Assembly (NCBI GenBank): GCA_017546705.1 | Contig: JAFYSB010000006.1 | Location: forward strand, 1-44,401 | Source: Paludibacteraceae bacterium | Lineage (GTDB): Bacteria > Bacteroidota > Bacteroidia > Bacteroidales > Paludibacteraceae | Direction of reading: 5' to 3' | Length of the DNA: 44,401 bases | In this document: piece after piece, positions 3,101 to 30,215 of the stretch | Numbering within the stretch: the first letter of the stretch is position 1 | Layout: every line of letters starts with the position of its first letter | The notes under the pieces: model-generated | What the model was told of the DNA's origin: nothing | The model's input: only the letters and a program-made list of their open reading frames with translations | The model's database searches: none | Program-made: the position numbers and the translations under genes

Positions 3101-3515
3101 CTTCGGGGTATGTCACAATGATTGGTTTATGTATCCTACTTCCTGATTCCTGCTTCCTTGTTCCCAACAATGTCGTCAATACTTCCGTTCGCTGTACAGC
3201 CATTGCCTCGTCGATACCTCCTTGACGGCGACGATGTAGAGTAGGGAAGTAGTACACTTCGTTTTCGTTGCCAAGTGTCCGTAGGTCAGCATATAAGTAT
3301 TGGGCGTCATCCGCATTATCAAGGACGATGAAACATACGTTGCCTTTGTTGTGTGTATGTAGCCGAGAGACTAATGCGTTTAATATGAATGCCCTCGCAG
3401 AGGCATGCAACCCCTTGAGTAAAAGGTGTTTATTCCCCTTTTTACTCAATTCTTGCGTCAATACATCCAATTCCGGATGCATGCCAAATAGCTGTTGCAA
3501 TTCGTTGATTTGCAT
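162..3515 (-). CDS. mfd: Transcription-repair coupling factor Mfd
   Basis: Mfd is a cytoplasmic ATP-driven translocase that removes RNA polymerase stalled at DNA lesions and recruits UvrA. The protein of 1117 residues has the family's usual length and order: an N-terminal UvrB-like region, an RNA-polymerase-interaction region (around VGDYVVHVDHGIGQF), a RecG-like helicase with Walker A GDVGFGKTE near residue 575, a DEEQ box (IDEEQKFG) near 680, TATPIPRTLQ and RGRVGRS, and a C-terminal TRCF domain. I chose the ATG at 3513-3515 (MQINELQQ). An upstream TTG at 3528-3530 adds only MEARG and lies inside a repeat array. It lies downstream of an aldo/keto reductase in the same orientation and probably shares its promoter at 4551-4582. 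Oddity: about 12 residues near 118-129 are encoded by a heptanucleotide array (3131-3165). Confidence 0.97.
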   Translation of the reverse strand: MQINELQQLFGMHPELDVLTQELSKKGNKHLLLKGLHASARAFILNALVSRLHTHNKGNVCFIVLDNADDAQYLYADLRTLGNENEVYYFPTLHRRRQGGIDEAMAVQRTEVLTTLLGTRKQESGSRIHKPIIVTYPEALAESVPQPDSLQGKTITLSVGEEIAISQLIEMLLELHFQRVDFVYEPGQFAVRGGIVDIYSYAHDIPFRIDFFGDEIDSIREFELETQLSQNKVDRMDIVSANSNDGIETLIIDYLPQNILWISNDFSLVRYKYEGTVTNQDTTLLTKAIEQSATIEIGNKSTFNQHDTITFDTLPQPTFNKHFDLLTDDLNERIKEGYRIYILAEQVKQTDRLKSIFEDIAHNQNTTPISFTAVNSTLHEGFIDRGAKICCYTDHQIFERYHRVTMRSENARRGKAIMTLKEINQLQVGDYVVHVDHGIGQFAGLVTTHFNGRSQETIKLVYRNNDTIFVSIHNLHRIAKYKGKDGSTPTISRLGSGAWERMKERTKDKVKEIARDLIQLYATRKQQAGFAFSPDGYMQHELEASFLYEDTPDQAKATLDIKHDMESKMPMDRLVCGDVGFGKTEVAMRAAFKAATDGKQVAVLVPTTVLALQHYNTFKERFRDFPVRVEYISRGKTAKQVKELLADLKDGKIDILIGTHKLVGKQVAWKDLGLLIIDEEQKFGVAVKEKLKALRTNVDVLTLTATPIPRTLQFSLLGARDLSVITTPPPNRYPVQTELITLDDEDIIKEAIQLEMQRNGQIYVVCNRIEMLPRIEQRIHRLYPEARTIIAHGQMPQGEMEKALEDFINYDYDILISTTIIESGVDISNVNTIIIHSAQHYGLSDLHQLRGRVGRSNRKAYCYLITPDRELLTSDARRRLDALTTFAELGAGFQLAMQDLDIRGAGNMLGSEQSGFIADLGYDTYQRILNEAMQELKDELQLDLSFGIEQTTRQSDEKLWCNDSQLESDLSLGFPSTYIENIAERISLYRELDSLPNEDALLEYQKRLIDRFGQLPEEAEQLLNVVRLRWLCCKLGIEKVILKQERLSLYFTTKSEKYWQSDTFGKIIEFIYSRPQRCRMVEDKDRQGKPTGKRYAVIQQVKTITGALTILSKMRGE
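3131..3165 (-). repeat. Heptanucleotide array inside mfd
   Basis: Five consecutive 7-bp units occur here. On the plus strand they have the form nnTTCCT; on the coding strand they read about AGGAAnC. They are in frame and encode roughly GTRKQESGSRIH, a charged Gly/Ser-rich stretch in a region of Mfd where I expect a short linker before the strand IIVTYPEAL. The reading frame used contains no stop codon. The array has the same period as those in ribBA and rarA. Confidence 0.75.
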
Positions 3516-3519
3516 ACCC

Positions 3520-3596
3520 CTCGCCTCCAACCTTTAACCTCTAATCTTTAACCTCCAACCTTTAACCTCTAACCTCTAACCTTTCACCTCTCACCT
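3520..3596. repeat. Heptanucleotide array between aldo/keto reductase and mfd
   Basis: Eleven 7-bp units lie head to tail with no gap. The plus-strand consensus is YTAACCT and the coding-strand form is AGGTTAR. Nearly all of the space between the two genes is array. The last unit supplies the TGA stop of the aldo/keto reductase (3591-3593), and the first units overlap the alternative TTG start of mfd. Most units carry TGA, TAG or TAA in the direction of transcription, so stops fall in all three frames. Confidence 0.9.
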
Positions 3597-4526
3597 AATC
3601 AATCTCATTTCCTCTTCTGTAAACTGTATATTATTGATCGCCTGTAGGTTATCATCCAATTGCTTGACGCTGCTTGCGCCTACAATCACGCTCGTCACAT
3701 CTTGTGCCAGTAGCCATGAGATGGCCATTTGCGCCAATGTCTGTCCGCGTTCAGCGGCGATAGCACCCAAGCGCTGTGCGCGTGCTACGGCTTCGTCGGT
3801 CACTTGCTCTGGACGGAGGAAGACGTTCTTGCTTGCACGGCTACCAGCTGGGATACCATTGAGATAGCGGTCGGTCAATAATCCTTGCGCCAGAGGCGAG
3901 AAACAGATAAAGCCCGAACCATTTTCTGTAGCTACGGGCAAGTTCTCGTGCAAGGTCTCTGGGAAGATGATGTTGGCTTTGTATTGACTAATCACGCAAG
4001 GCACATGTGCAGCACGCAGATAATCATATGCTTCTTTCTGTTTATCAGCAGGATAGTTGCTTATTCCCACATACAATGCTTTGCCTGCTCGCACGATGTC
4101 CACCAATGCTTGCATGGTCTCTTCGATAGGTGTTTGCGGGTCATAGCGATGCGAATAGAAGATGTCGAAATACTCCAATCCGGTACGCTTCAAACTTTGG
4201 TCGCACGATGCTATCATATATTTGCGCGAACCGCCATTGCCGTAGGGACCGTCCCACATCCAATAGCCTGCTTTAGAGGAGATCACCATCTCATCGCGAT
4301 GGCTGGCTAAATCCTCACGCAGTACTTTGCCGAAGGTGATTTCTGCGGTGCCTGGTGCAGGACCGTAGTTGTTGGCGATGTCGAAATGTGTCACGCCTTT
4401 ATCCCATGCGTGCAATAGCATGGCGCGTGCTACATCTGCTGGATCTTCGCTGCCGAAGTTATGCCATAAGCCCAGTGATACCAGTGGCAACTGCAAGCCA
4501 CTCTTTCCTGAAAAACGATACTCCAT
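3591..4526 (-). CDS. Aldo/keto reductase, YghZ-like
   Basis: This is an NADPH-dependent aldo/keto reductase of 311 residues. The closest family I recognise is YghZ (AKR14), which in E. coli reduces L-glyceraldehyde 3-phosphate and methylglyoxal. Visible features are the catalytic Asp and Tyr in FDIANNYG, the Lys in ISSKAGYWMWDGPYG, the His in DIFYSHRYDP, and the C-terminal cofactor segment with VIVGASSVKQLDDNL. I chose the ATG at 4524-4526 (MEYRFSG) because the family starts there; the longer frame to 4553 would run into the -7 box of the promoter. It is probably transcribed with mfd. The substrate cannot be told from sequence. Confidence 0.9.
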   Translation of the reverse strand: MEYRFSGKSGLQLPLVSLGLWHNFGSEDPADVARAMLLHAWDKGVTHFDIANNYGPAPGTAEITFGKVLREDLASHRDEMVISSKAGYWMWDGPYGNGGSRKYMIASCDQSLKRTGLEYFDIFYSHRYDPQTPIEETMQALVDIVRAGKALYVGISNYPADKQKEAYDYLRAAHVPCVISQYKANIIFPETLHENLPVATENGSGFICFSPLAQGLLTDRYLNGIPAGSRASKNVFLRPEQVTDEAVARAQRLGAIAAERGQTLAQMAISWLLAQDVTSVIVGASSVKQLDDNLQAINNIQFTEEEMRLIR

Positions 4527-4550
4527 AATGCCAATTTTGTATATTTGCTG

Positions 4551-4582
4551 CAAAGTTACTAATAATTTTACATATTTGCAAA
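4551..4582 (-). promoter_or_regulatory. Bacteroidota-type promoter for the aldo/keto reductase and mfd
   Basis: Read on the minus strand: TTTG (4579-4582), a 20-bp spacer and TAACTTTG (4551-4558). This matches the Bacteroidota vegetative pattern TTTG - 19 to 21 bp - TAnnTTTG. The expected transcription start lies about 18 bases before the chosen ATG. Confidence 0.75.
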
Positions 4583-4601
4583 TTCTGTATTACAAGTTTT
4601 C

Positions 4602-4733
4602 TTCGGGCTACGCGACCATTTCGCGACCACTGTAGCACATCTGTGGCATTGTTGTGCCCTATCTGTGGGCGTAATTTTTGCTGACGCTACCCCTCGAAAC
4701 CACTTCGTTGCTACTGCGATGTCCATCGGTGGC
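4602..4733. repeat. Degenerate 11-bp-period array upstream of the giant GHL10 gene
   Basis: About twelve 11-bp units can be laid end to end. The clearest run is 4613-4667, where units such as CGACCATTTCG and CGACCACTGTA, then GCACATCTGTG, GCATTGTTGTG and CCCTATCTGTG, align column by column. In 4690-4733 a TCG/GCG core recurs at the same unit position. The region has no coding capacity. One stretch (4693-4709) recurs in inverted orientation at 12761-12777. Confidence 0.65.
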
Positions 4734-4742
4734 GGCTTCCCG

Positions 4743-4777
4743 TTTTCACTTTTCAGTTTTCAGTTCTCACGTTTCCT
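4743..4777. repeat. Heptanucleotide array before the promoter of the giant GHL10 gene
   Basis: Five 7-bp units lie here: TTTTCAC, then TTTTCAG twice, TTCTCAC and GTTTCCT. They directly follow the 11-bp-period array and end about 30 bases before the -33 element of the promoter at 4808-4838. Confidence 0.7.
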
Positions 4778-4807
4778 GCCATTTTTTTGAAAAAAAACTC
4801 ATTTTAC

Positions 4808-4838
4808 TTGCATATGTGCGTTTTTTGTAGTAATTTTG
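4808..4838 (+). promoter_or_regulatory. Bacteroidota-type promoter for the giant GHL10 gene
   Basis: TTG (4808-4810), a 20-bp spacer and TAATTTTG (4831-4838). The predicted start gives a leader of roughly 55 bases before the GTG start codon at 4900. Confidence 0.75.
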
Positions 4839-4899
4839 CGCGCTATTTGTGTAAAATGGCGAAATAGATGCTAATAATAACTACAAAATACCAAATTTA

Positions 4900-7800
4900 G
4901 TGAAAAAGATCTTTACACTTTGTGTTGTGCTCTGTTTGACGTATCTGAGTATGGGGGCTACCAATCCCAAGCACGAGTTTCGTGCTACGTGGCTAACTAC
5001 CGCATGGGGCAATGACTGGCCCAAAACGAGAGTGACGAATGCCACCACACGTAAGCAACAGCAAGATTCCCTGATTGCTATTTTTGACCGATTGCAAGCA
5101 GGTAATATGAATGCTGTTTGTTTCCAAGTACGTGGTCGATCGGATGCGTTCTACCAGTCGAGCTACGAACCTTGGGCTGCTGAATTAGCAGGTGCTCGTG
5201 GCAAAGATCCAGGTTATGACCCATTGGCTTTTGCTATCGAAGAGGCACACAAACGTGGTCTGGAGTTGCACGCATGGGTGAATCCATTTCGCGTAACCAG
5301 TGCTGGCACTTTGGATGCGAATGATCTTGTGAAAAAAAATGCAGGTCAATGGATTATACAATACAATAATGGTTCGTTTTCGGGACAAATCATAGACCCT
5401 GGCTATCCAGAGGCACGTGAATACGTGTTGAATGTATTGATGGAGATCATTAGCAATTACGATATCGACGGTATTGTAATGGACGACTATTTCTATCCAT
5501 ATGGTGGTACTACTACCGAAGATGCTGCATCTAAGGCATTGCACAAACCTGCAAACGTAGTGGATGTGAATCAAGATGGTTATACCGATGACGATTGGCG
5601 CAGAAGCAATGTAGATGTGTTCCTAAAGGAATTGTACGATCGCATTCAGGCTAAAAAGCCATGGGTACGCTTTGGTATGGGTACTTTTGGTATTTGGACT
5701 ACCCAAACCAAAGTAGCACAAGCATATGGTATCGCTTTGCCAAGTGGTATTTCTGGATTGGACGATTATGATGAACAGGCATGTAATCCTGTGGAATGGG
5801 TGAAGAATGGCTACGTGGATTATATCAACCCACAATTATATTGGCCAACTACTTCTACTGGTCAAAATTATAACAAGCTCTGCCAATGGTGGGCAAAAGA
5901 TGTGTGTGAGCACTTCTCCAACCAGTTGACAAATGGCAAAAAGGTGCATTTCTTCTCAAGCCAAAGTATTAGTAGTAACTCCGCTGTATCTGAAATCCAA
6001 GCGGAAATTGATGCCAATCGCAGTAATCTTTCATCTGGTTATACAGGATCGGTATTCTTTGATACAGATGCGTACCTGACAATGGATAAAGACTTGATGA
6101 CTTCGAGGTTTGCCACCAATGCTCTCACACCACCTATGGATTGGAAGTCAAAAACTGCTTTATCTGCTCCAACCAACCTTACAATATCAGGCACCACCCT
6201 CACATGGAAACATGCTACGGCGGAGCGCTTTACGGTGTATGTGTATCCTAAAGGAACGGCATGGAGTACAGCAAAGAATGATCCAGCCTATTTGCAAGGA
6301 GTGATCTATGGCAATAGTATGGATATCAGCGGAATAGATACTAATATGAATGATATCGCCGTATGTGCTTACGACCGCTTTGGCGTAGAGCATACTGCTG
6401 CTGTCTATAGCAATGATTCAGGTGCTGGTACTACACCTAATCCTGAAACAATCATATGGGAACTAAATGGTGGCGAGGTTAATACAGTTACCGTAGAAGT
6501 GCCCAGTTTAACTACTTTAGAAGCACAATTCAAGAATGACTACAATAGTTATTTTGGTGCGGCGGTAGCGACAACACGCGAAATAACCAACTTCTTGTAC
6601 TATGGCTCTAAAGAGGAAGGTGGTAGTAATCTTGTTTACAATATGATGAATGATCCAGTTGCTGATTGGACGTGGTTGCGTGATTACATTATTTCGAAAT
6701 CGGCAAGCAATACTACTATTCAAACTGCTCTACTAGCTGGAACAGATGCGCATTGGCGATATAGTATAGTTGCTTTCCTTACGGCTAGTGCAGGCACCAA
6801 TTCTACCTATACCGTTGATTTTTCTATCGCTGGTCAACCATCTAAATGGGGAACTGCATACCAAATAGCACACGGTGCGGTGTTGTTGCCTACTTATGTG
6901 ACCAGCGCATATACCTTGCCAGCTCCTGTTCATCCATCTAGATACGAGTTCCTTGGTTGGTATGATAATGCCGAGTTTGCGGGTTCACCTTTAACTACTA
7001 TCCCTGCTAATTGGACAGGTACGTTGTATGCCCAATGGCAAGAAAATGCTCCAACCATCGACCCAACATGGCAAATCCTCTATACCTCTACCGATGGCAA
7101 TGTCGTTGAGCCATACAAAACCAATGTCTTCGGTGCTAATATCGTCAGCAATATATATGAGAATGGAGTAGGTACGATTACCTTTGATGGTCCAGTAACG
7201 AGCATTGGAGATGGCGCTTTTACTCTTTGCGCTTCTCTTACTACCGTTACTATTGGCAATAGCGTAACGAGCATTGGAGATGGCGCTTTTACTCTTTGCG
7301 CTTCTCTTACTACCGTTACTATTGGCAATAGCGTAACGAGCATTGGAGATAATGCTTTTGATTTTTGCGCTGCTCTTTCCTCAATCACAATCCCTAATAG
7401 TGTAACAAGCATAGGAGACGAGGCTTTCACTGGATGCTCCTCCCTCACGTCAATCACGATTCCTAGTAGCGTAACACATATTGGAGTTAGAGCTTTTTCC
7501 AGTCACTCCATTGAATCAATCGTTGTGGATAGTGAAAATGCTACCTACGACAGTCGCAACAATTGCAATGCGATTATTGAGAAAGCCACAAACTCTTTGA
7601 TTGCTGGTTGCCAAAAAACTATTATCCCTAATAGCGTAACAAGTATAGGAAAGATGGCTTTTTATAATTGCTCCTCACTTGCCTCTATTACAATACCTAA
7701 TAGCATCAAGAGTATAAGTAGTTCTGCTTTCTATGGTTGCTCCTCCCTTACCTCTCTCACCATTCCTAATAGCGTTACGAGTATTGAAAAGGAGGCTTTC

Positions 7801-10800
7801 CATGCTTGCTCTTCCCTTACCTCTATCACGATCCCTAATAGCGTTACGAGCATCGGTGAGTGGGTCTTCTATGATTGCTCCTCCCTCACTTCCATCACTA
7901 TCCCTGAAAGCGTTACGAATATAGGTAATAGTGCTTTCTATGGTTGCTCCTCCATAGCCTCCATTACTATCCCTGAAAGCGTTACTAGCATTGGAAAAAA
8001 GGCGTTCGATAAATGTTCTTCTCTCGATACGATATACGTAGAAGCAACTACTCCACCTGCATTAGGAGAGAATGTATTTGCATCTTCTCCTGTCTGCCAC
8101 ATCCCTTGCGGAACCCTCGCTACATACGAATCATCCGCATGGGCAAGGCAAGTCGGTGGTTTTGTGGGAGATTGTCCACCAGCATCAGCTGCAATCACTT
8201 ACGTCCTCAACGGCGGTGTACAAAGCGAATGGGAAACCCCACAAGCAATGTACAACGAGTTGAATGCATTGTGGAATACATTTAGTGGTACTTCAAAGAC
8301 TTGGGGTGACTTGAGTACCCTCAAGGCGGATGTTGCTAAGGGTATTCCTACATTGGCATATGGTATGGCATTGGACTTCATCGCAGATGAGAATTTCAAG
8401 GAAAAATTCGAGTGGTTGGTAACCTACATGGATGCTAAATGTACTGAGCAAGGTCAAACATTGCCTTCTTCTGATGCATCTTTCTTGCGTTACAACTTGC
8501 AAGCTTTCTTTATTGATGGCATGCGCACAAGTTGGCCAATTTCTGCTGATTATACTATATGTGGTGTAAGCACTGTAGAGGCTTATCAACCATATTGGAA
8601 GAGTGGTTTTGCGAATCCGACCAATCCAACAGAGGAGTTTGTTCTCAACGCTCCATACAAAGAGGGCTATACATTCGCTGGTTGGTACACCAATGCCGAT
8701 TTCTCTGGCGAGAAGGTGACTACTATCAATGCCGAGACTACAGGCACACTCTACGCCAAGTGGATTAATAACGATTGGATAATCACCTACACCTCCACAG
8801 ATGGCAATATCGTCAAACCGAATAAAACCGGTGTCTTTGGTGCAAATATCGTAAGCAACGAATACAAAGACGGCCAAGGTGTCATCACCTTCGATGGTCC
8901 AGTTACGAGCATTGGCGAGGAGGCTTTCAATAGTCGCAAATCCCTCACCTCTATCACGATTCCTAATAGCGTTACGAGCATTGGAGAGAGGGCTTTCAAG
9001 AGTTGCGAGTCCCTCCCTTCTGTCGTCATTCCTAATAGTGTTACGAGTATTGGTACGAGTGCTTTTTGGTATTGTTCTTCTCTCGCCTCTGTTACTATCC
9101 CTACTAGCGTAACAAGCATTGGAGAGAATGCTTTCGCGGATTGCCCCTCCCTCGAATCCATTACAATCCCAAATAGTGTAACAAGCATTGGATTACAGGC
9201 GTTCTTTAACTCTGGCTTAAGATCCATTAGTATCCCTAATAGTGTTGAGAGCATAGGAATGAATGCTTTTAGAGAATGCTACTATCTTACTTCTGTGACT
9301 ATCGGCAGTGGAGTCACGAGTATTGGAAACGCAGTTTTTAGTTCTTGTCACTCCCTCACCTCTATGGTAGTAGAAGCTGGTAATCCCATATACGATAGCC
9401 GCGAGAACTGCAACGCAATTATCGAGAAAGCGACCAACACACTTATTGCGGGTTGTTCAGACACGAGTATCCCTAGTAGTGTCAAGAGTATTGGAGATTG
9501 GGCTTTCTATGGTTGCTACTACCTTACCTCTATTACAATCCCTAATAGCGTCACAAGTATTGGGGCTGATGCATTCAATGGTTGCACCTCCCTCTCCTCC
9601 ATCACGATCCCTAATAGCGTTACGAGCATTGGAGGGGAGGCTTTCGCACGTTGCAACAACATTAAAACGATCCATATAAAGGCAACAACGCCACCTAGTA
9701 TAGGATTAGATATTTTCTCTACAAAAGTGAGAACTGCCAATATACCATGCGGTACCAAGGAGGCGTATGAGGATTCAGATTGGGTGTTACATATTATCTT
9801 CTTTGAGGAAGATTGCTCAGAGCCTATCGACCCAACTTGGCAGATCACCTATACCTCCACCGATGGCAGTACCGTCACTCCAAATAAAACCGATGTCTTC
9901 GGCGCAAATATCGTAAGCAACGAGTACAAGGACGGCCAAGGTGTCATCACCTTCGATGGTCCAGTTACGAGCATTGGAGAGGAGGCTTTCTGGTCTTGCG
10001 AATCTCTCACCTCTATCACTATCCCGAAGAGCGTCACGAGCATTGGAGCGTATGCTTTTGTTACTTGCTGCTCCCTCACCTCTATCACCATCCCTAATAG
10101 CGTCACGAGCATTGGAGAAGCGGCTTTCGATGATTGCAGCTCCCTCACCTCTGTTACTATCCCAGAGAGCGTCACGAGCATTGGGTATCATGCTTTCTGG
10201 TCTTGCGAATCTCTCACCTCTATCACCATCCCTAATAGCGTTACGAGCATTGGAGAAGCGGCTTTCGCTGCTTGCCGCTCCCTCACTTCTATCGTGGTAG
10301 AACCAGGTAATACCACCTACGATAGCCGCGAGAACTGCAACGCAATTATCGAGACAGCGACCAACACGCTTATTGCTGGATGTCAAAACACAGTCATCCC
10401 CAACACCGTTACGAGCATTGGAAATTTGGCTTTCTTTCATTGCTTCTCCCTCACCTCTGCCACTATCGGCAGTGGCGTTACGAGCATTGGGAATAGGGCT
10501 TTCGAGGGTTGCTCTTCCCTCGCCTCTATCACTATCCCGAATAGTGTTACGAGTATTGGTGAGAATGCTTTCTCGGGTTGCACCTCCCTCATCTCTGTCA
10601 CCCTCGGCAGTGGCGTCACGAGCATTCGATTTGCGACTTTCTCTCGTTGCTCCTCCCTCACCTCTGTCACCCTCGGTAGTGGCGTTACGAGCATTGAAGT
10701 TTGGGCTTTTGGTGATTGCACCGCCCTCACTTCTATTACTTGCGAGGCAACAACGCCTCCTACACTTGAATCATCTGTATTCCCATCCGAACTCACCACC

Positions 10801-12678
10801 GCCTATATCCCTTGTGGCTCACTTGCCGCATACGAAGCATCGGATTGGGCAAGTCAAGTGGGTGAGTTTGTGGAGGAAGGATGTGCACCAATTCAGATGT
10901 GCGGTGATGACCTCTATTGGGAATATGCGGATGGTGTGCTCACCATCACGGGTACGGGGGATATGTACGATTATGCAAAGGATACCGATGTACCTTGGTA
11001 TGATGTGCGTGGTAACATCAAGACGGTTAGCTTGCCAGATGCAATGACCAAGATAGGACAAAATGCGTTCTATAAGTGTACCAACATGACTACTATCAAT
11101 ATGCCTACTAGTCTTACTGCTATTGGCGAGAAAGCATTTGCACAAGATACCAAACTGGCATGCGAGATTATCCTTCCAGCATCCATGACTACCATTGCTA
11201 GTCGTGCGTTCTTCAACTGCCAGGCCGTGACTGCCTTCCACATTGAAGCTACCACACCTCCAACGATACCAAATGATGCATTTGAACGTACTACTGCTCC
11301 TATCCATGTGCCATGTGGCTACGGACATATCTATGGCAAGCATACCCAATGGGGCGAACTAAATCTGGAGATGTGCGAGTTGCTGCAAGATAATGTATAT
11401 TACTATCCAATCGATGGCCATACAGCACGTGCGGTGACCTATCACAGCAATCCTACCGACACCATTGTCATTCCATCGGCTGTGGTGATAGATGACGTGC
11501 CACGTACCGTAACCGAGGTAGCAGACTTTGCCTTCACGGATTGTGCCAACTTGCCAGCCATCTACTTCAGCGAAGGTTTGGAGTACATCGGCGAGCGTGC
11601 CTTTGTGCGCTGCTATGGCTTGCAAGGCACCATCGTATTGCCTGCTACATTGGAGACAATTGGTGAGCGTGCATTCTCCTATTGCAATAATGTGGATAGA
11701 TACACCATCCAGGCCATGACTCCTCCTGTATTGGGCGCAAATGCTTTTACTGGCGATAATAAAAATGCGTTGTTCTATATCAGTTGTGAGGCGATGGATG
11801 ACTACAAGGTGGCTACCAACTGGTCTTCACTCAAGAGTCGCCTGCGCGATGCCTGCCTCAATATCTATCACTATAATACCGCATTGGGCGCAAATGGCGT
11901 ACATACCACCGAAGATACACTGGTAGCAAACATCGACTACCGCCGTAAGTTTACTACAAGTCGCTGGGAGACATTGTATCTGCCATTTGAAGTAGATCGC
12001 GTGACCGTGCTGGAAGATGGTGTGGAATATGACCTAACAGCATGGGATATTGTCAATGGAGGACATTATTACTTGGCAAAACCTTATGGCATCGAGAACA
12101 AAGAGGTTGTCTTCGCTTTTACTCAAGTGGTGGATGCTCATACACCTTATATCATTCAATTCAAAGATCCATATTTTCATGACAAGATGATTACCTTCCA
12201 TGGCAAAGAATCTTGGAACAAGTTGAGTAGCTCGTTTGAGGCGTTACCAATCAGTTTTGAGATGCAAATGGCTGGTAATACCACATTGCAAGATCAGATA
12301 TTGGAGGAGCCAGTATATATGTTGCGCGGTACTTCGAATTTCATCCTGCAAAATACCACGACTACCTTGCACCCATTCGAGTGCTACGTGATGCCATATG
12401 CTACACCAAGCGGAACCCCAGCACGTATGAACGTGCGCTTCCGCGGCGACGTGCCTACAGCTGTAGAGTCCGTGAAAGGCAATGAATCCTACCTGACATA
12501 TAGCGTTGATGGATACACATTGACCGTATATCCACAGGGGCAAGCCTTCAGCATCTACTCGCTCAATGGCGCATTGATCTACAGCTGCGAAGCAGGCAAA
12601 GAGGCAGTGGACTGCGAGCTGAATAGCGGATGCTACTTGCTGCATGCAGGCGCCGAAGCGCATAAGATCATGCTGTAA
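4900..12678 (+). CDS. Giant exported protein: GHL10 domain plus BspA-type leucine-rich repeats
   Basis: The 2592-residue protein starts at GTG with a signal peptide (about 1-19). Residues about 25-415 form a GHL10 (DUF187/PF02638) TIM-barrel-like domain: [37 protein letters not shown] and the acidic pair in [12 protein letters not shown] (D195, D196). The E. coli relative DigH/YddW cuts denuded peptidoglycan glycan strands. An Fn3-like segment follows (425-505), then an unnamed domain (about 517-660, diverged copy 1098-1245), each copy ending in an InlB-type repeat ([16 protein letters not shown]). BspA-type repeats of 23 residues ([16 protein letters not shown]) fill about 722-1090, 1291-1645, 1646-1995 and 2000-2300. 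The C-terminus has a domain shared with the other giants in style ([10 protein letters not shown]) and a tail ending [16 protein letters not shown] that resembles a type IX secretion signal. Domain assignments are by eye. Confidence 0.88.
7195..7332 (+). repeat. Exact 69-bp tandem duplication of one leucine-rich repeat
   Basis: Bases 7195-7263 and 7264-7332 appear identical. The unit is 23 codons, exactly one leucine-rich repeat ([19 protein letters not shown]). The following repeats share only parts of it, so this duplication looks recent. Confidence 0.9.
8775..10380 (+). repeat. Duplicated leucine-rich-repeat block
   Basis: Blocks beginning near 8775 and 9838 share long near-identical stretches. 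Examples are the coding for [20 protein letters not shown] (8853-8912 and 9912-9971) and the island coding for [12 protein letters not shown] (9390-9425 and 10318-10353). A third, more diverged copy of the same arrangement begins near 7069. The pattern points to segmental duplication or gene conversion within the gene. Confidence 0.8.
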
Positions 12679-14793: not shown

Positions 14794-16041
14794 ATGATGG
14801 ATACAATAGAAAAAGCAATCGAAGATATTCGCGAAGGTAAGTTCGTGATCGTGGTGGATGATGAAGATCGTGAGAATGAGGGTGATTTTATCATCGCAGC
14901 AGAGAAGATAACTCCTGAGAAGGTCAACTTCATGCTCCAGCATGGAAGGGGCGTACTATGTGTGCCACTGCCTGAGACACGCTGTGCAGAGCTAGATTTG
15001 GTGCACCAAGTGTCGAACAACACCTCGATGTTGGGCACCCCATTCACTGTGACCGTGGATAAGCTGGAGGGCTGTACTACTGGTGTGAGTGCGGAGGACC
15101 GTGCGGCTACTATCCGCGCATTGGCAGACCCTGCTTCTACGCCACAGACATTCGGTCGTCCAGGCCATATCAATCCGCTTTATGCACAAGAACGCGGTGT
15201 GCTGCAACGTGCTGGACATACCGAGGCTGCTGTGGATTTAGCACGTTTGGCGGGCTTGCAACCAGTGGCTGCACTCATCGAGATTATGAATGAGGACGGC
15301 ACCATGGCACGTATGCCACAACTGGAGAAAGTGGCTGAGGAATACGGATTGAGCCTCATCTCTATTAAGGACCTCATCGCCTACCGCATTAGCCATACCG
15401 AGGATGCCAACTCTCAACTCTCAACTGTCAACTCTCAACTGTCAACTGCCCTCGTGGAGCGTGGTGAGACAGTTAGTCTGCCTACCGAGTTTGGCGACTT
15501 TATGCTCACACCTTTCCGTGAGCTGACAACTGGACTGGAGCATATTGCCTTGGTGAAGGGCGAATGGCAAGCGGATGAACCAATCCTCTGCCGTGTACAC
15601 TCGTCGTGTATGACAGGCGATATCTTTGGCTCAAAGCGCTGCGAGTGTGGCGAGCAACTCCACAAAGCTATGCAGATGGTGGAGAAAGAGGGCAAGGGTA
15701 TCATCGTCTATATGAACCAAGAGGGACGTGGCATTGGATTGATGAACAAGATTCGTGCATACAAGCTCCAAGAGCAAGGCGACGACACCGTAGAGGCAAA
15801 CGTCCACCTGGGCTTCCAACCCGATGAGCGTAACTATGGAGTAGGGGCACAGATATTGCAACAATTGGGCGCACACAAGCTCCGCTTGATGACCAACAAC
15901 CCTATCAAACGAATTGGCTTGGAGAGTTTTGGCATAGAAATTGTAGAGAATATTCCAATAGAGATAGCTCCTAATCCATATAACTTGCGTTATATGCGCA
16001 CCAAGAAGGAGAAAATGCATCACAATCTAAACTTAGTGTAA
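14794..16041 (+). CDS. ribBA: Bifunctional DHBP synthase / GTP cyclohydrolase II
   Basis: Riboflavin biosynthesis. The N-terminal domain (about 1-205) makes 3,4-dihydroxy-2-butanone 4-phosphate from ribulose 5-phosphate; [11 protein letters not shown] binds metal and substrate, with [17 protein letters not shown] and [17 protein letters not shown] also visible. The C-terminal domain (about 220-415) opens the GTP ring; the zinc site is in [20 protein letters not shown], with [10 protein letters not shown] and [11 protein letters not shown] following. The 415-residue length is slightly above the usual 400 or so because of a 14-residue linker insertion ([14 protein letters not shown], 206-219) encoded by a heptanucleotide array. 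ATG at 14797 is an equally good start. It follows the permease by 2 bases. Confidence 0.97.
15409..15450 (+). repeat. Heptanucleotide array inside ribBA
   Basis: Six 7-bp units of consensus AACTSTC (AACTCTC or AACTGTC, the last AACTGCC) give exactly 42 bp, so the frame is kept. They encode two copies of NSQLST-V/A in the linker between the two catalytic domains, where an insertion should be tolerated. The frame used has no stop codon. Confidence 0.9.
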
Positions 16042-16042: not shown

Positions 16043-17317
16043 ATGAAACGAGTATTTTTATTCATCCTGGCTCTTGGTTCCTTACTCTTGGTTCCATATT
16101 CTGCTTTGGCAGACGAGACGGTGACAGTCACTGCCACTACGTCCGACATTTCCGAAAACCTCGATCTTAAGACGGTTGCAACCCTCTTTGGACAAGCCAA
16201 AGACTTGGAGCAATTTGAGCAGTTGCTCAATAATCCTGATTCAGCATTCTCCAACCTCGACCTCAATGGCGATGGAGAAGTGGACTATTTGCGCGTCATC
16301 GAGACTGCCGATAACAACCGCCACCTCGTGGTCATCCAAGCCGTATTGGCTAAGGATATCTACCAAGATGTGGCCTCTATCTTCGTCGAGAAGGATGCTG
16401 ATGACCAAATCACCGTACAGGTGGTAGGCGACGAGTATATCTATGGTGCCGATTATATCATCGAACCAGTGTATATCTATAGACCATTGATTTATGATTG
16501 GTTCTGGGGAACATCGTGGGTATGCTGGCACTCGCCATATTATTGGGGCTATTGGCCAGGTTGGTGGCGTCCATACTATTGCGTAGATCCTTTCCTGTAT
16601 TGGGATCACTGCTATTGGCACCACTACCACTATCCTTACTGCTCTTTCCGTATGGGTCATCATCATCATGCACATTATCATAATATGTATGATCGTGTAC
16701 GCCGCAATGATTATGCGCATCGCCATCCTGAGCGTTCGTTCGCTACGCGCAATGCTTCGCGCAACGTGAGCAACGCACGTGCTTTTGAGCAAAGCCGCCG
16801 CACAGCTGTGCGTGATGCCAATGCTACACGCACTACGACAAGCAGAGGTTCGGCTACGCGCGTGAGTACATCATCTACTACGCGTGGCAATGCAGCACAA
16901 GCATCACGCAATGCTACGTATGGTAGCACCAATGTGCGCGGTACTACTACGGCTACTCGTGGCAATGCCACCCGTACTTCCACTACGACTACTTCGCGTA
17001 CCTCCACTGCTACCACACGCACTACGACTACTACACGCACTACGGCTACCCCTTCACGCACTACCACCACACGTAGCACTATTACTACTACACGCACGCA
17101 GCCTTCGCGCTCGAGTGTGAGCACTGCTACCACACCATCACGCTCAAGTAGCTCGGCAGTACGTTCCTCTTCGTCAAGCACGATGCGTTCGTCTGCACCA
17201 AGCAGTGTGCGTTCGTCATCATCCAGCACCATGCGCTCATCGGGTGGTATGTCGGGTGGAGGCTCGCGCTCAGGCGGAAGCTCTTCGTCGCGCAGTGGCG
17301 GAAGCACACGCAGATAA
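16043..17317 (+). CDS. Secreted protein with EF-hand-like loop, His/Tyr/Trp-rich centre and Ser/Thr/Arg tail
   Basis: I do not recognise a named family. The 424-residue protein begins with a signal peptide (cleavage near residue 23, YSALAD). Residues about 30-145 form a folded domain with a calcium-loop-like motif (DLNGDGEVDYL, about 73-83) followed by RVIETADNNRHLVVIQAVL. Residues about 145-215 are very rich in Trp, Tyr and His (YYWGYWPGWWRPYY; WHHYHYPYC; HHHHAHYH) and could bind metal or haem, or pack against the outer membrane. From about 225 to the end the sequence is low-complexity Thr/Ser/Arg and strongly basic. Its start lies one base after the ribBA stop, so it is in that operon. Function unknown; probably periplasmic or surface. 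Confidence 0.75.
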   Translation: MKRVFLFILALGSLLLVPYSALADETVTVTATTSDISENLDLKTVATLFGQAKDLEQFEQLLNNPDSAFSNLDLNGDGEVDYLRVIETADNNRHLVVIQAVLAKDIYQDVASIFVEKDADDQITVQVVGDEYIYGADYIIEPVYIYRPLIYDWFWGTSWVCWHSPYYWGYWPGWWRPYYCVDPFLYWDHCYWHHYHYPYCSFRMGHHHHAHYHNMYDRVRRNDYAHRHPERSFATRNASRNVSNARAFEQSRRTAVRDANATRTTTSRGSATRVSTSSTTRGNAAQASRNATYGSTNVRGTTTATRGNATRTSTTTTSRTSTATTRTTTTTRTTATPSRTTTTRSTITTTRTQPSRSSVSTATTPSRSSSSAVRSSSSSTMRSSAPSSVRSSSSSTMRSSGGMSGGGSRSGGSSSSRSGGSTRR

Positions 17318-17397: not shown

Positions 17398-17991
17398 ATG
17401 ATTAAATTTCATTTCGAACTCCCAGAGTTGGGATACCAATTCGGAGATTTGGCTCCAATGATGAGTCAAGAGACACTTTCTTTTCACTATGGAAAGCATT
17501 TCCGCGCGTATGTGGATAATCTCAACCAACTGGTGGATGGCTCCAAGTACGAGGGATTATCCCTCGAAGAGTTGGTGCGTAAAGCGCCTGAAGGACCAAT
17601 TGCCAATAACGCTGGGCAAGTGCTGAATCACCAATTATTTTTCGAACAACTTACTCCTGCACGCAATGCTAAACGTCCGTCCGGTGAGTTTCTGTTCTTG
17701 ATCGAGCAATCCTTTGGCTCCGTAGAGAAAATGGTAGAGCAACTGGATAAGGCAGCCTCTTCGTTCTTTGGCTCGGGGTGGACATTCTTGGCAATGGACG
17801 ACGGTGGCGAACTGAAGATATTGTCCTTGCCTAATGGGGATAATCCCTTGCGCTATAACCTGAAGCCGCTCTTGGCAATTGATGTATGGGAGCATGCGTA
17901 TTACTTGGATTATCAGAATCGCAGAAAAGATTATTTGAAGAACTTGTGGTTGCTAATCAATTGGCATGTGGTGTCGGAGAGAGTGGTGTAG
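17398..17991 (+). CDS. sodB: Superoxide dismutase, Fe/Mn family
   Basis: This cytoplasmic enzyme dismutates superoxide to hydrogen peroxide and oxygen. The 197-residue protein has the metal-ligand pattern of the family: His30 in LSFHYGKHF, the His in NNAGQVLNHQLFF, and Asp and His in DVWEHAYYLDYQNRRKDYL, with FGSGWTFLAMDD between. The Gln in AGQVLNH is the arrangement of iron enzymes and of the cambialistic P. gingivalis enzyme, so I expect Fe or Fe/Mn use. It stands alone behind a sigma54-type promoter and a terminator-like hairpin. Its TAG stop (17989-17991) is part of the first unit of a heptanucleotide array. The peroxide produced would be a substrate for the rubrerythrin encoded next. 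Confidence 0.97.
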   Translation: MIKFHFELPELGYQFGDLAPMMSQETLSFHYGKHFRAYVDNLNQLVDGSKYEGLSLEELVRKAPEGPIANNAGQVLNHQLFFEQLTPARNAKRPSGEFLFLIEQSFGSVEKMVEQLDKAASSFFGSGWTFLAMDDGGELKILSLPNGDNPLRYNLKPLLAIDVWEHAYYLDYQNRRKDYLKNLWLLINWHVVSERVV

Positions 17992-18019
17992 GGTGTAAGG
18001 TGTAGCGTGTAGGGCGTAG
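17985..18019 (+). repeat. Heptanucleotide array at the end of sodB
   Basis: Five 7-bp units of consensus GGTGTAG begin inside the last codons of sodB. The first unit provides the TAG stop and the second a TAA in the next frame. The array ends about 58 bases before the sigma54-type promoter of the rubrerythrin gene. Confidence 0.85.
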
Positions 18020-20089: not shown

Positions 20090-20095
20090 AATTGT

Positions 20096-20116
20096 GAATT
20101 ATGAATTTTGAATTAT
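20096..20116. repeat. Short heptanucleotide array between gpsA and pgi
   Basis: Three units of the form GAATTnT, on the plus strand, fill most of the 37-base gap, with AT-rich bases around them. The same unit recurs at 22847-22888. Confidence 0.65.
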
Positions 20117-21120: not shown

Positions 21121-21165
21121 CTCTAAACTTTAAACTGTAGCTCGCTTTTGCGAGCGTCCTCTAAA
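21121..21165. repeat. Mixed heptanucleotide and TAG-hairpin repeat between lysS and gpsA
   Basis: CTCTAAA, CTTTAAA and CTGTAGC are followed by a 6-bp hairpin (GCTCGC, TTTT, GCGAGC; 21140-21155) and another CTCTAAA unit. The combination of TAG with a small palindrome matches the arrays at 26649-26711 and 43875-43963. Confidence 0.6.
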
Positions 21166-22824: not shown

Positions 22825-22846
22825 ATTTACGGGGTATAATTTGTGA

Positions 22847-22888
22847 TAATTGAGAATTATGAATTGTGAATTATGAATTATGAATTGA
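22847..22888. repeat. Heptanucleotide array in the lysS/GH3 divergent region
   Basis: Six 7-bp units of consensus GAATTAT (variants GAATTGT, GAATTGA and TAATTGA) lie between the two divergent promoters. Together with those promoters this accounts for most of the 306-base gap 22734-23039. Confidence 0.85.
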
Positions 22889-25849: not shown

Positions 25850-25869
25850 CACGCTAATTATTATTGCTT

Positions 25870-26711: not shown

Positions 26712-26733
26712 GATATTGAATATTTTTTAGACA

Positions 26734-27981
26734 ATGAATAATAACCTCCTTTTTACTGAGCATAAGCTTGGTCCTATCACTTTGCGCAACCGCGCTATCC
26801 GTTCTGCCGCTTTTGAGAACATGGCATACGGCAACAAACCTAGTCAAGATCTCTATAATTATCATACTGCTGTGGCCCGTGGTGGTGCGGCTATGACTAC
26901 TGTGGCATACTGTTCTGTGACTCGTTCAGGTGTGTCCTTTGATGGTCAACTCTATATCCACGACGAGATAAAAGAGGACTTGAAGAAGCTCACCGATGGC
27001 ATTCATGCGGAGGGTGCTAAAGCTAGTATCCAATTGGGGCACTGTGGTAACATGACCCACTTCTATACTTGCAACTGTCTTCCTGTAGGTGCAAGTACAG
27101 GATTCAACCTCTATTCGCCAACCCTCCACCGTGCGCTTAAGAAAGAGGAGATAAAGGAGATAGTAAAGGCATTTGGCCACGCTGTGGACTTTTGCCGCGA
27201 GTGTGGTTTTGACTGCGTTGAGATTCACGCGGGTCATGGCTATTTGATTTCGCAATTCCTCTCTCCATATACCAACCGCCGTCGCGATGAGTACGGAGGT
27301 TCGCTGGAGAACCGTATGCGTTTCATGAATGAGGTCATGGCTGAGGTTATGGAGCACGCTGGCGACGATATGGCTGTGGTGGTGAAGACCAACATGTACG
27401 ACGGCTTTAAGTCTGGACTCAAAGTAGAGGAGTGCATCCGCATCGCCCAAGAGATTGAGAAACATGGTGTTCACGCACTCGTTCTTACTGCGGGCTTCGT
27501 GAGCAAAGCTCCTTTCACCGTCATGGGTGGTGCTATGCCAATCAAGACCTTGGCTCACTACATGAATCCATGGTCGTTCTGGTGGCTTCGCCTAGCATTG
27601 CGCTTCGTGGGTCACTTGATGATTCCTACTGTACCTTTCAAAGAACTCTTCTTCCTCGATACAGCGAAGCAATTCCGCAAGGCATTGAAGATGCCACTCA
27701 TCTATGTAGGTGGTGTCATGGGTCGTGAGAATGCAGAGACTGCTCTCGCAGAAGGATTTGATTTTGTGCAGATTGGACACGCTCTCGTGCGCGATACTGA
27801 TTTCGTGAACAAGATGAAAGAGGAGCAATATCACTCTGAGTGCAAACGCTCTAACTACTGCGTAGCGCGTATGTACACCCTCGATATGAAGTGCCACGAG
27901 TGCGACAAGGACATTCCTGCATACCTCAAGAAGGAAGCCCTCAAGTACGAACAAATGTGGTATCCCTCCTCTAAACACTAA
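26734..27981 (+). CDS. Old-yellow-enzyme family flavin reductase (BaiCD-like N-terminal domain only)
   Basis: FMN-dependent reductase of 415 residues related to the barrel domain of 2,4-dienoyl-CoA reductase and of BaiCD, which reduces the delta4 bond of 3-oxo bile acids. Visible: LGPITLRNRAIRSA, QLGHCGNMTH, HAGHGYLISQFLSPYTNRR, DEYGGSLENRM and the phosphate-binding GGVMGRENAETAL. The FAD/NAD(P) domains of BaiCD (about 640 residues in total) are absent. The iron-sulfur motif CxxCNxC...C is altered: C370, S373 in place of the second Cys, C376, C387, plus an extra C390. It lies between a 5-alpha-reductase and a dehydrogenase gene with no promoter between. The last residues and the TAA stop are encoded by a heptanucleotide array. 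An ene-reductase for another substrate remains possible. Confidence 0.88.
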   Translation: MNNNLLFTEHKLGPITLRNRAIRSAAFENMAYGNKPSQDLYNYHTAVARGGAAMTTVAYCSVTRSGVSFDGQLYIHDEIKEDLKKLTDGIHAEGAKASIQLGHCGNMTHFYTCNCLPVGASTGFNLYSPTLHRALKKEEIKEIVKAFGHAVDFCRECGFDCVEIHAGHGYLISQFLSPYTNRRRDEYGGSLENRMRFMNEVMAEVMEHAGDDMAVVVKTNMYDGFKSGLKVEECIRIAQEIEKHGVHALVLTAGFVSKAPFTVMGGAMPIKTLAHYMNPWSFWWLRLALRFVGHLMIPTVPFKELFFLDTAKQFRKALKMPLIYVGGVMGRENAETALAEGFDFVQIGHALVRDTDFVNKMKEEQYHSECKRSNYCVARMYTLDMKCHECDKDIPAYLKKEALKYEQMWYPSSKH

Positions 27982-28003
27982 ACACTAAACTCTAAACACT
28001 AAA
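27969..28003 (+). repeat. Heptanucleotide array at the end of the flavin reductase gene
   Basis: Five 7-bp units, CACTAAA or CTCTAAA. The array starts inside the coding region, encodes the last residues (SSKH, in part) and supplies the TAA stop at 27979-27981. It fills the gap to the dehydrogenase start at 28009. Confidence 0.9.
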
Positions 28004-28008
28004 CTAGA

Positions 28009-28836
28009 ATGCTTGCATTAGTTACTGGCGCATCATCGGGTATTGGCCTTCAATATGCCACCCAACTAGCGCGCGATTATCATACTGATCTTCTGTTGGT
28101 TAGCAACCAAGAAGAGGAACAAAAGAAAGTGGCTGCTGACCTCGCAGCTCAATATGGCGTAAAGACTACTGCTCTTTATGCCGATCTCTCCAAGCAAGAC
28201 GCAGCGGAGCAATTGCTCCAATACTGCAAGGACAGCAACCTCGTCGTGGATATCCTTATCAACAACGCGGGTGTGTTCTTCTTCAACCCTTATTGCGAGA
28301 CCAGCATGAAGCGCATTGAGCTCATGCTCAACTTGCATATGATTACGGTTGCTAAACTCACTCGTCTATTTGGTGAGGAGATGATCAACCGCCAACTCAC
28401 CGAAGAAGAACAAGCGCAGAAACTCTGCCGCAAACCACGCCGAAAAGGCTATATTCTCAATATGTCCTCCATGTCTGCATGGATGGCTATGCCGGGTATT
28501 CAGACCTACAATGCTACCAAGGCGTTTATCTATAATTTCTCCAAGTCACTTTGGTATGAGTTCAAACCTAAAGGCGTGAATATCACTGTGATGACTCCTG
28601 GAGCGGTAGATACCGAACTCTTTGGCTTAGCGCCTCACTTGCGCCGTTTGGCAGTAAACTTGACCGTGGCTATCCCACCAGAGAAACTGGTGAAACGAGC
28701 TTTGAAGAAGATGTTCCGTGGCAAGAAAGCCGATATGCCAGGTGTAATCAATTACTTGTGCACTCCATTGCTCAAGCACACCCCAGATTGGCTCGTGAAC
28801 CTCGCCATCAAGTTAGTGGGCAAGTTCCAAAAGTAA
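28009..28836 (+). CDS. Short-chain dehydrogenase/reductase, hydroxysteroid-dehydrogenase-like
   Basis: NAD(P)-dependent oxidoreductase of 275 residues. It has the classical SDR elements: TGASSGIG (6-13), the NNAG motif (about 85-88) and the catalytic triad S154, Y167 and K171 (YNATK). The chain is longer than the 250-residue minimum, with an insertion around 128-147 (EEEQAQKLCRKPRRKG) and a C-terminal hydrophobic or amphipathic tail (DWLVNLAIKLVGKFQK), features that recall the membrane-associated 17-beta-HSD3/12 group. Next to a 5-alpha-reductase and a BaiCD-like reductase, a 3-oxo/3-hydroxysteroid dehydrogenase role is the best guess. A 3-ketoacyl reductase is the main alternative. Confidence 0.88.
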   Translation: MLALVTGASSGIGLQYATQLARDYHTDLLLVSNQEEEQKKVAADLAAQYGVKTTALYADLSKQDAAEQLLQYCKDSNLVVDILINNAGVFFFNPYCETSMKRIELMLNLHMITVAKLTRLFGEEMINRQLTEEEQAQKLCRKPRRKGYILNMSSMSAWMAMPGIQTYNATKAFIYNFSKSLWYEFKPKGVNITVMTPGAVDTELFGLAPHLRRLAVNLTVAIPPEKLVKRALKKMFRGKKADMPGVINYLCTPLLKHTPDWLVNLAIKLVGKFQK

Positions 28837-28887
28837 AAGTTCAACTATTGCTATCAATTTTTATCGGATAGAATTGTTAACTAAACA

Positions 28888-28915
28888 AATAAGGTATGCG
28901 CGAGCATACCTTATT
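28888..28915. terminator. Bidirectional terminator between the dehydrogenase gene and rarA
   Basis: A 12-bp perfect stem AATAAGGTATGC (28888-28899) with its complement at 28904-28915, loop GCGA, then T-rich sequence on the right. The right arm contains the rarA stop codon (28911-28913), so the end of rarA is part of the hairpin. Confidence 0.88.
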
Positions 28916-30215
28916 CTTTTTTCCATAGATATTTCATCCAGTCAGCCATCTTCTGCTCTTGTGGACTACCTTGTGCGTGCCAAAGTTGTGTGCCTTGGAG
29001 AGCATCTGGCATAAACTGCTGTTTGACGAAATGGTTTGGAAAATCATGTGCGTATTGATATCCTTCGCCATACCCCAATTCATCCATGAGTTTGGTTGGT
29101 GCATTGCGCAGGTGCAATGGTACTGGCAGATTGCCAGTTTTTTCGACCAACTCTAATGCTTGATTGATAGCTAGATACGCGGAATTAGACTTTTGTGAGG
29201 TGGCGAGATATACTGTTGCCATCGCCAAAGGAATACGTCCCTCTGGCCAACCAATCTTCTGTAGTGTGTCGAAACAAGCATTTGCCACCAACATGGCATT
29301 CGGATTAGCCAAACCAATATCTTCGCTTGCTGAGATGACTAATCGGCGAGCTATAAATTTGGGGTCTTCGCCAGCTGCTACCATACGTGCCAACCAGTAT
29401 AATGCTGCATCTGGGTCGCTACCTCGGATAGACTTGATGAAAGCGGAGATAATATCATAATGCAGTTCGCCATCCTTATCGTATGCTACAGGATTCTGTT
29501 GCAGTTGCTGCGTGACGGTTTCATTATCAATAACCTTGACACCAGAATTTGTCACAAGTTCTATGATATTCAGCAGCTTGCGTGCATCACCACCCGAATA
29601 GCGGAGCAGACTTTCCGTTTCTTTAACCGCTATGTTGAGCGAACGGATATGCTCATCTTTTGTCATTGCACGATTGAGCAACTCTTGCAAATCTGCTTTT
29701 TCCAAATGCTTCAATACATATACTTGACAACGGCTTAGCAGCGGTGTAATCACCTCAAACGAAGGATTCTCTGTTGTAGCACCAATCAGCGTGATTGTAC
29801 CATCTTCTACAGCACCTAATAGACTATCTTGTTGCGACTTGGAGAAACGATGAATCTCATCGATAAATAATATCGCTCGCTCGACTCCAGACTCTCGATG
29901 CCTGATTCCCGACTCCCGACTCCCAAACAACCCGCTATTCATTGCAGCGTAGCGTTTCGCTTTGTCAATCACCTCGCGCACTTCTTTCACACCGCTGGTA
30001 ACGGCGGATAAGGTATAGAATGGGCGCTCCAACTCGTGTGCAATGATGCGTGCTAAAGTGGTTTTTCCCACACCAGGAGGACCCCATAATATGAACGATG
30101 ACAGATTGCCATTCTCAATCATCTGACGAAGAATAGCTCCTTCGCCTACAAGGTGCTTCTGACCGATATATTCATTAAGCGTTCTTGGACGCAATCGTTC
30201 TGCAAGTGGTAGCAT
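28911..30215 (-). CDS. rarA: Replication-associated recombination protein A (AAA+ ATPase)
   Basis: RarA (MgsA) is a clamp-loader-like ATPase that acts at stalled replication forks. The 434-residue protein has Walker A GPPGVGKTT (45-53), Walker B ILFIDEIHRFSKSQQD (115-130), sensor GATTENPSFEV, and the C-terminal MgsA part (DPDAALYWLARMVAAGEDPKFIARRL; ASEDIGLANPNAL-like; HLRNAPTKLMDELGYGEGYQYAHD). It lies 26 bases downstream of recN and probably shares its promoter. Oddity: residues about 99-112 (GSRESGIRHRESGV) are encoded by six heptanucleotide units, just before Walker B, where relatives have a short loop. Confidence 0.96.
   Translation of the reverse strand: MLPLAERLRPRTLNEYIGQKHLVGEGAILRQMIENGNLSSFILWGPPGVGKTTLARIIAHELERPFYTLSAVTSGVKEVREVIDKAKRYAAMNSGLFGSRESGIRHRESGVERAILFIDEIHRFSKSQQDSLLGAVEDGTITLIGATTENPSFEVITPLLSRCQVYVLKHLEKADLQELLNRAMTKDEHIRSLNIAVKETESLLRYSGGDARKLLNIIELVTNSGVKVIDNETVTQQLQQNPVAYDKDGELHYDIISAFIKSIRGSDPDAALYWLARMVAAGEDPKFIARRLVISASEDIGLANPNAMLVANACFDTLQKIGWPEGRIPLAMATVYLATSQKSNSAYLAINQALELVEKTGNLPVPLHLRNAPTKLMDELGYGEGYQYAHDFPNHFVKQQFMPDALQGTQLWHAQGSPQEQKMADWMKYLWKKE
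29880..29921 (-). repeat. Heptanucleotide array inside rarA
   Basis: Six 7-bp units, coding-strand consensus GGGAGTC, total 42 bp and keep the frame. They encode two copies of a GSRESGI/RHRESGV-like heptapeptide between the helix EVREVIDKAKRYA and the Walker B strand. The chosen frame lacks stop codons. Confidence 0.9.

Follow-up and report, generated by a model that had tools for sequence, protein, structure and literature searches.

The window studied here is the whole of contig C53 (JAFYSB010000006.1; 44,401 nucleotides) in a draft genome of a Paludibacteraceae bacterium (GCA_017546705.1; hereafter G000). The draft comprises 2.1 Mb in 82 contigs, is 90% complete, and encodes a phosphoglucose isomerase (PGI) whose best named match, at 82% identity, belongs to a Paludibacteraceae metagenome-assembled genome from roe deer rumen. 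The window carries tandem arrays of 7-nucleotide units (heptamers) and a hairpin cassette. The genes that flank the arrays are ordinary by Pfam: Mfd, aldo-keto reductase, LptF/G, RibBA, superoxide dismutase, rubrerythrin, PGI, glycerol-3-phosphate dehydrogenase, a class II tRNA synthetase, GH3, MgsA/RarA, and RecN/SMC types (short gene labels, gpsA and lysS among them, are our own reading). An Rfam search of the window at the gathering threshold gave no match. The features are as follows.

3131..3165, minus strand: array inside mfd (Pfam Mfd domains), four imperfect AGGAAGC-type heptamers in an indel-prone loop
3524..3596, plus strand: array filling the mfd/aldo-keto reductase spacer, about ten AACCTYT heptamers
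4743..4777, plus strand: divergent intergenic array, TTTTCAC/TTTTCAG heptamers
15408..15450, plus strand: RibBA linker array, six AACTSTC heptamers in frame between the RibB and RibA domains
17985..18019, plus strand: array 3' of the superoxide dismutase gene, five GGTGTAG heptamers
20090..20116, plus strand: array filling the gpsA-pgi spacer, AATTNTG heptamers
21131..21165, minus strand: hairpin cassette in the gpsA-lysS spacer, TTTAGAGGAC-GCTCGC-AAAA-GCGAGC-TACAGTTTA; absent from the initial annotation
22844..22888, plus strand: array in the spacer between lysS and a GH3-family gene, GAATTAT/GAATTGT heptamers
27969..28004, minus strand: stop-to-start spacer array, five GTTTAGW heptamers between two plus-strand genes
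29880..29924, minus strand: array inside a RarA/MgsA-type ATPase gene, six RGGARTC heptamers in frame

Arrays were detected by a self-match scan (match +1, mismatch -2, score of at least 12, periods 2-30). Eight period-7 arrays of the window pass this strict score (3529-3596, 4743-4769, 15408-15448, 17985-18019, 20090-20114, 22844-22886, 27971-28004, and 29897-29924), and the ninth place, 3131-3165, is weaker (Tandem Repeats Finder gives 3140-3158, 2.7 copies, score 31); all nine places of period-7 DNA in the initial annotation hold, and its observation is confirmed. Periods 6, 11, 18, 22, and 30 have one array each in the window and the remaining basic periods none, so that no basic period from 2 to 13 other than 7 exceeds one array; periods 14, 21, and 28 mostly re-detect the period-7 arrays, with the exception of a period-14 array at 16071-16102.

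The excess extends beyond the window. Forty further stretches of G000 (616,620 bp; L017-L036 and L136-L155), in which the pattern had not been noticed before, contain, at that score threshold, 48 arrays of period 7, 29 of period 11, 12 of period 9, eight of period 8, four of period 12, one each of periods 5 and 13, and none of periods 4, 6, and 10. Simulated genomes (three each for Markov orders 1, 3, and 5) yield zero or one array overall at each of the periods 6-11; tandem 7-nt units stand far above statistical expectation in G000, as in heptanucleotide long simple-sequence repeats, and chance or base composition is ruled out as the cause of the arrays. Assembly error is also ruled out: a sister species (G014, 98% complete) has the gpsA-pgi array letter for letter, and the coding arrays keep their frame. 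Thirty-eight stretches of this sister (706,824 bp) contain 37 arrays of period 7, 29 of period 11, 11 of period 10, ten of period 8, and three of period 9. Across five score settings period 7 leads in the G000 sample except at the strictest, where period 11 (20 arrays) is slightly ahead of period 7 (18), which indicates that 7 is not the sole favoured step. The expectation that period 7 should outnumber the other short periods, on which the initial annotation had staked its proposal, is borne out against periods 2-6, 8, 9, and 10; period 11, the second peak of the genus, is not far behind. With the window included, 30 period-11 arrays occur in 661 kb; several of their units recur, and some lie near contig ends (examples are TACCGTGTATA at 43767-43845 of the window, and GAATCACTAAA and TACGTAGGATA elsewhere in the G000 sample).

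Farther afield the picture is uneven. Eighty pgi loci from named Bacteroidales (824,931 bp) contain 48 arrays of period 7, 21 of period 6, 18 of period 22, 14 of period 21, 11 of period 9, nine of period 8, and two of period 11, counts that are not independent since the loci are mutually homologous. A phylum-wide sample of 20 stretches (385,992 bp) holds five period-7 arrays, confined to three of the 20 genomes. Period 7 is therefore widespread but patchy, and strong in G000 and its sister G014.

The initial annotation held that the arrays have no shared sequence. This does not survive a larger sample, and the impression arose because only nine arrays were viewed. Among the 56 period-7 arrays of G000 (window included) there are 27 distinct consensus units, and GTTTAGT is the consensus in 13 arrays. 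An exact twin of the unit is found elsewhere in the sample for 38 of the 56 arrays (letter-shuffled units: mean 11.4, maximum 23 in 200 shuffles). Nineteen of the 37 arrays in G014 have a unit that is also found in G000 (shuffled mean 2.05, maximum 6 in 500 shuffles; reversed units 1), and conversely 36 of the 56 G000 arrays have a unit found in G014 (shuffled mean 4.0, maximum 12; reversed 5). The overlap with other Bacteroidales (9 of 48 arrays) is near the controls (mean 2.1, maximum 7; reversed 7). In the whole G000 genome, three successive GTTTAGN units match 63 times forward and 15 times in reverse, overlapping matches being counted, and the reversed-pattern control gives none. This forward excess runs along the contigs; relative to genes, the GTTTAG arrays in co-directional spacers are seven sense and four antisense. 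Whole-genome counts are slightly inflated, since the draft has duplicate contigs (C25 and C27, seen in L301 and L302, share 2979 identical bases).

Units are shared, and the unit at a given site is rarely kept. We compared sites between G000 and G014 for those arrays with both flanks located in the sample of the other genome; some sites appear in both lists. For the 20 of 56 G000 arrays that could be located in G014, the site there has the same unit in three cases, an array of another unit in three, an array of another period in one, an absence in four, and other sequence in nine. For the 11 of 37 G014 arrays located in G000, the corresponding numbers are two with the same unit, three with another unit, four absent, and two with other sequence. 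Taking the two overlapping lists together, the unit was kept in five of 31 listed arrays, and by eye the other sequence at turned-over sites includes cassettes and degenerate heptamers. Between the sister species, most sites have lost their array or hold something else in its place. An example is the array L025:7181 of G000, with unit ACAGTTG, whose orthologue in G014, L261:14805, has AGGTGAA. Turnover of period-9 and period-11 arrays is barely assessable, with two of 12 and two of 30 located for G000, and two of three and one of 29 for G014.

The window itself shows replacement inside conserved proteins. The Mfd loop contains AGGAAGC-type units in G000, AGGCGAA in G014, and, by eye, AAAGTCG in G059; in an alignment of 14 relatives, six are without the insert (G049, G048, G013, G028, G011, and G020) and the rest have other sequence. 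The RibBA linker lies between domains at amino acids 6-197 (RibB) and 225-388 (RibA); by eye it carries CCAATAG-type heptamers in G054, and five of 13 aligned relatives are without insert (G028, G011, G013, G048, and G020). The RarA array is an old one: its counterpart in G054 matches it in length but has diverged, and no insert is present in G020, G028, and G011 (the relatives' units were read partly by eye). Among the spacers, the gpsA-pgi array is absent from the junction in nine genus members (G025, G054, G039, G052, G059, G038, G033, G011, and G028), and other heptamers occupy the same junction in L068 (Bacteroides), L090 (Prevotella), and L124 and L133 (Bacteroidaceae). The gpsA-lysS cassette has the same site and the identical stem in G014, with a changed loop, and the coordinates place a heptamer array of G052 (L046:15943-15976) where G000 has the cassette. 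At the superoxide dismutase site of G014 the scan gives no array, and GTGTAG-like letters persist by eye; the junction at 27969-28004 contains cassettes and a different heptamer array in G014. The array at 22844-22888 falls outside the comparison with G014, in which the sequence past lysS differs. Elsewhere in the window, at 4900-12678, a 2592-amino-acid open reading frame (ORF) contains many imperfect 69-bp (23-amino-acid) repeats, presumably of the type seen in leucine-rich surface proteins.

Relative to genes, 34 of the 56 G000 arrays lie outside ORFs, though ORFs cover 92% of the sample; arrays are over-represented outside coding sequence, as is the case for heptanucleotide repeats. The 22 arrays inside ORFs are an upper figure, because the simple ORF caller makes spurious ORFs; three arrays of the window (Mfd, RibBA, and RarA) are truly coding. 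Of the 34 arrays outside, 27 are in co-directional spacers, four in divergent and two in convergent ones, and one is at an edge. The co-directional spacers are short, 23 of the 27 measuring 8-68 bp. In 22 of the 27 at most 13 bp separate the array end from the called downstream start, and in 23 the array overlaps the upstream stop or begins within 14 bp of it. These distances are approximate, and the closeness to starts is partly an artefact, because our longest-ORF caller over-extends starts towards the arrays. We found no strand preference in these 27 spacers, the purine-rich strand being coding in 14 and template in 13.

The GTTTAG arrays also contain hairpin cassettes. In G014, arrays are often broken up by GGAC-hairpin-TAY (89 copies, 29 stems), and the G000 form is GTTTAG[AT]G[GA]AC-hairpin-TAC[AT]GTTTAG (25 copies, 15 stems). 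A pattern that fixes only the ends, leaving 7-17 interior bases free and itself demanding TTTAG and GTTTA, finds 42 copies in G000 (two of them counted twice through the contig duplication), 47 in G014, 19 each in G038 and G060, 15 in G025, ten in G054, seven in G039, six in G056, and one each in G019 and G049; it finds no copy in 51 of the 61 genomes searched, and the reversed pattern has none in all 61. Forty of the 42 G000 copies pair fully to a loop of at most 5 nt, with 18 distinct stems, against a mean of 16.6 and a maximum of 24 when the 3' halves were reshuffled 500 times (the pattern itself dictates the closing G-C pair). Without the heptamer requirement, GTTTAG precedes the cassette in 19-23 of the 25 G000 copies, counted per position; the G014 flanks are mixed. 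For a comparison of sites we used a looser pattern, which gives 22 cassettes in the G000 sample and 83 in G014. Eight of the 22 were located in G014, where four are kept and four are lacking, and 15 of the 83 were located in G000, where four are kept (the identical four sites) and 11, at five sites, are lacking. The four kept cassettes changed in or next to the loop, one by a one-sided change that opens a pair; no paired (compensatory) stem change was found at orthologous cassette sites between G000 and G014. Cassette stems vary between sites, and not visibly within a site. In co-directional spacers six cassettes are sense and six antisense in G000, and four and three in G014. Near position 14238 of L142 there is a composite tandem of several repeats, each of GTTTAGT heptamers plus a minimal cassette (GAACGCTGCGCTACT), and the site in G014 contains just a short GTTTAG-like remnant. 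A cyanobacterial origin, an early guess prompted by the heptamers, was rejected, the best named relative being a Paludibacteraceae genome (82% in PGI) and the palindrome GCGATCGC being not abundant in the 2.1 Mb of G000, with 12 places against nine for the reversed word. That the arrays themselves are arms of hairpins was rejected, since an inverted partner within 250 bp occurs for none of the 56 G000 and none of the 37 G014 arrays. In other Bacteroidales, 14 of 48 arrays do have an inverted partner of the same unit within 250 bp (control mean 0.58, maximum 3), and these would fold into long stems (for example L068 3736-3826 and 4831-4949, L070 6347-6458, and L135 2137-2232).

The initial annotation knew of no described system of this kind; heptanucleotide repeats and a slippage hypothesis are, however, in print. 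In most genomes, long simple repeats are more abundant with heptanucleotide units than with units of any other length, and a 7-nt polymerase contact has already been put forward as the place of slippage (Mrazek 2007, cited by PMC4679880 and PMC4692102). As relayed there, these repeats share with G000 the heptamer arrays and the proposed 7-nt slippage step, to which G000 adds the period-11 peak, control-tested sharing of units, and replacement at sites between sister species. The GGGAATC/GGGGAYT repeats of Xanthomonas and Nostoc lie in spacers near start or stop codons, and those between the same genes of two Xanthomonas species vary in length and sequence (PMC4692102). The array at 29880-29924 has the unit type of this GGGAATC; but whereas in Xanthomonas and Nostoc, as that article presents them, a single G-rich type of unit prevails, with four as the favoured copy number, G000 has many units, and GGG or CCC occurs in just four of its 27 consensus units (AATCGGG, equivalent to GGGAATC, among them), so that the G-rich unit of the GGGNATC G-quadruplex heptamers is not its rule. 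TAACTGA repeats are described from Beggiatoaceae, Cyanobacteria, and some Bacteroidetes as intergenic, beside start codons, and intermixed with other heptamers, with mostly 7-nt indels between two Cyanothece strains (PMC4679880). As portrayed in that source, they resemble the G000 arrays in being intergenic heptamers that adjoin start codons, and differ in the unit, TAACTGA being absent from the 27 consensus units of the 56 arrays, and in that G000 has no strand preference.

The cassettes recall another kind of element. Work by Elhai (2008) reportedly described small dispersed repeats (SDR) of 21-27 nt in Nostoc, which are said to have a common hairpin kept by compensatory changes and to be often embedded in tandem heptamers. 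Set against this definition, the G000 hairpin is kept by paired differences among dispersed copies, and the cassette is embedded in tandem heptamers, the latter partly by pattern. The likeness would be that of a dispersed paired hairpin within heptamers; G000 belongs to another phylum and has cassette ends GRAC...TAY. The SDR work is mentioned in PMC4390886 and PMC3116915. With repetitive extragenic palindromic (REP) sequences, REPINs, and their REP-associated tyrosine transposases (PMC3116915), the cassettes share the character of short, palindromic, dispersed spacer elements; they differ from what is related of these in that their stems vary among copies and in that the two genomes with the most cassettes gave no cognate Y1 transposase, PF01797 having no match in G000 (90% complete) or G014 (98% complete; over 12 genomes, three matched, one above the cut-off). 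Reverse transcriptases do not follow the cassettes either, with no match in G014 and three in G000; a Y1 transposase or a reverse transcriptase as driver is unsupported by this distribution. Among the open-licence PMC articles that our searches listed, we found no Bacteroidales report of such units or cassettes. What our data add to the articles cited above is the sharing of units tested against controls, the second favoured step, of 11, the cassettes, and the exchange of array content at orthologous positions, some of them in protein loops.

We think it probable that the arrays are long heptanucleotide simple-sequence repeats of a known bacterial kind, maintained by 7-nt slippage together with copying between permissive sites. 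Slippage or misalignment by 7 nt as the DNA is replicated would add units to an array or remove them, and copying would carry a unit, or a whole array, into another permissive site and so overwrite that site instead of merely lengthening it. The permissive places would be chiefly short co-directional gene spacers, and also tolerant protein loops. GTTTAGW, the commonest family, also carries the GRAC-hairpin-TAY cassettes, whose stems differ by site and are kept per site, and whose presence or absence varies between the sister species, as would be the case for mobile mini-elements. The arrays can be explained without any function, though spacer length may influence expression. The initial annotation instead proposed that a local process builds every array from scratch in steps of 7 nt, without memory of sequence. 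Different heptamers at the orthologous Mfd loop (three species) and RibBA linker (two), the pair L025:7181 and L261:14805, and the gpsA-pgi heptamers of L068, L090, L133, and L124 all speak for such a generator. The interpretation of the initial annotation is partly supported, in that the step is 7, stands far above chance in G000, and one site can carry differing heptamers in related species. However, because units recur within G000 and between G000 and G014 far above the shuffled and reversed controls, purely local invention at each site is insufficient, and we regard this explanation as unlikely. Several points also weigh against slippage with copying. Our comparisons were between species, with slippage inferred, and copying is deduced from shared units, a result that a generator with a strong sequence preference would mimic. 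Slippage at 7 leaves the period-11 peak (29 arrays in 617 kb of G000) unexplained, and a sample of 15 stretches (255,027 bp), drawn from eleven further genus members, contains four arrays of period 7 and 11 of period 11, which makes the period-7 excess lineage-specific. There are also flank matches between different arrays, in nine non-neighbouring pairs, mostly of 30-64 bp and partly made of leftover heptamers, although arrays with a common unit rarely have homologous flanks. A dispersed repeat carried along by longer homologous flanks was rejected as the general explanation: it fits one of these pairs (L017/L140), the eight others having only 30-64 bp.

That the heptamers spread inside mobile mini-elements, cassette and GTTTAG heptamers forming one unit moved by a transposase or via RNA, would suit the abundance of cassettes under the interior-free pattern with its empty control, and the four of eight located G000 cassettes that have no counterpart in G014. 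Yet most heptamer arrays carry other units, the search of G000 and G014 gave no Y1 transposase, and reverse transcriptases do not follow the cassettes; this seems quite improbable to us. Even less probable, in our judgment, is that the arrays are working regulatory elements, which by analogy might be sites for a translation-controlling protein, as PMC4679880 proposes for TAACTGA in marine Beggiatoaceae. The nearness of array ends to called starts agrees with such a role, but is inflated by the ORF caller, and the even use of both strands, the loss or replacement of arrays between sister species, and the arrays inside protein loops do not fit it. Slippage with copying remains our preferred reading. 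A bolder reading, which we consider doubtful, would be a two-part system of the genus, in which copying with a fixed 7-nt step writes units of a shared vocabulary into permissive spacers in place of their earlier content, while a hairpin mini-element, constant at its ends but given a different stem whenever it inserts, moves about inside the arrays. If this is true, the mini-element would be among the smallest mobile elements known, and would lie outside the cyanobacteria.

The preference of bacteria for simple repeats of 7 nt is a long-standing open question. The lineage of G000 offers a direct test, having many arrays, a usefully distant sister species, differing heptamers in conserved genes, and a second step of 11. 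The cassettes would carry the idea of very small mobile elements within heptamer arrays from the cyanobacteria to the Bacteroidales.

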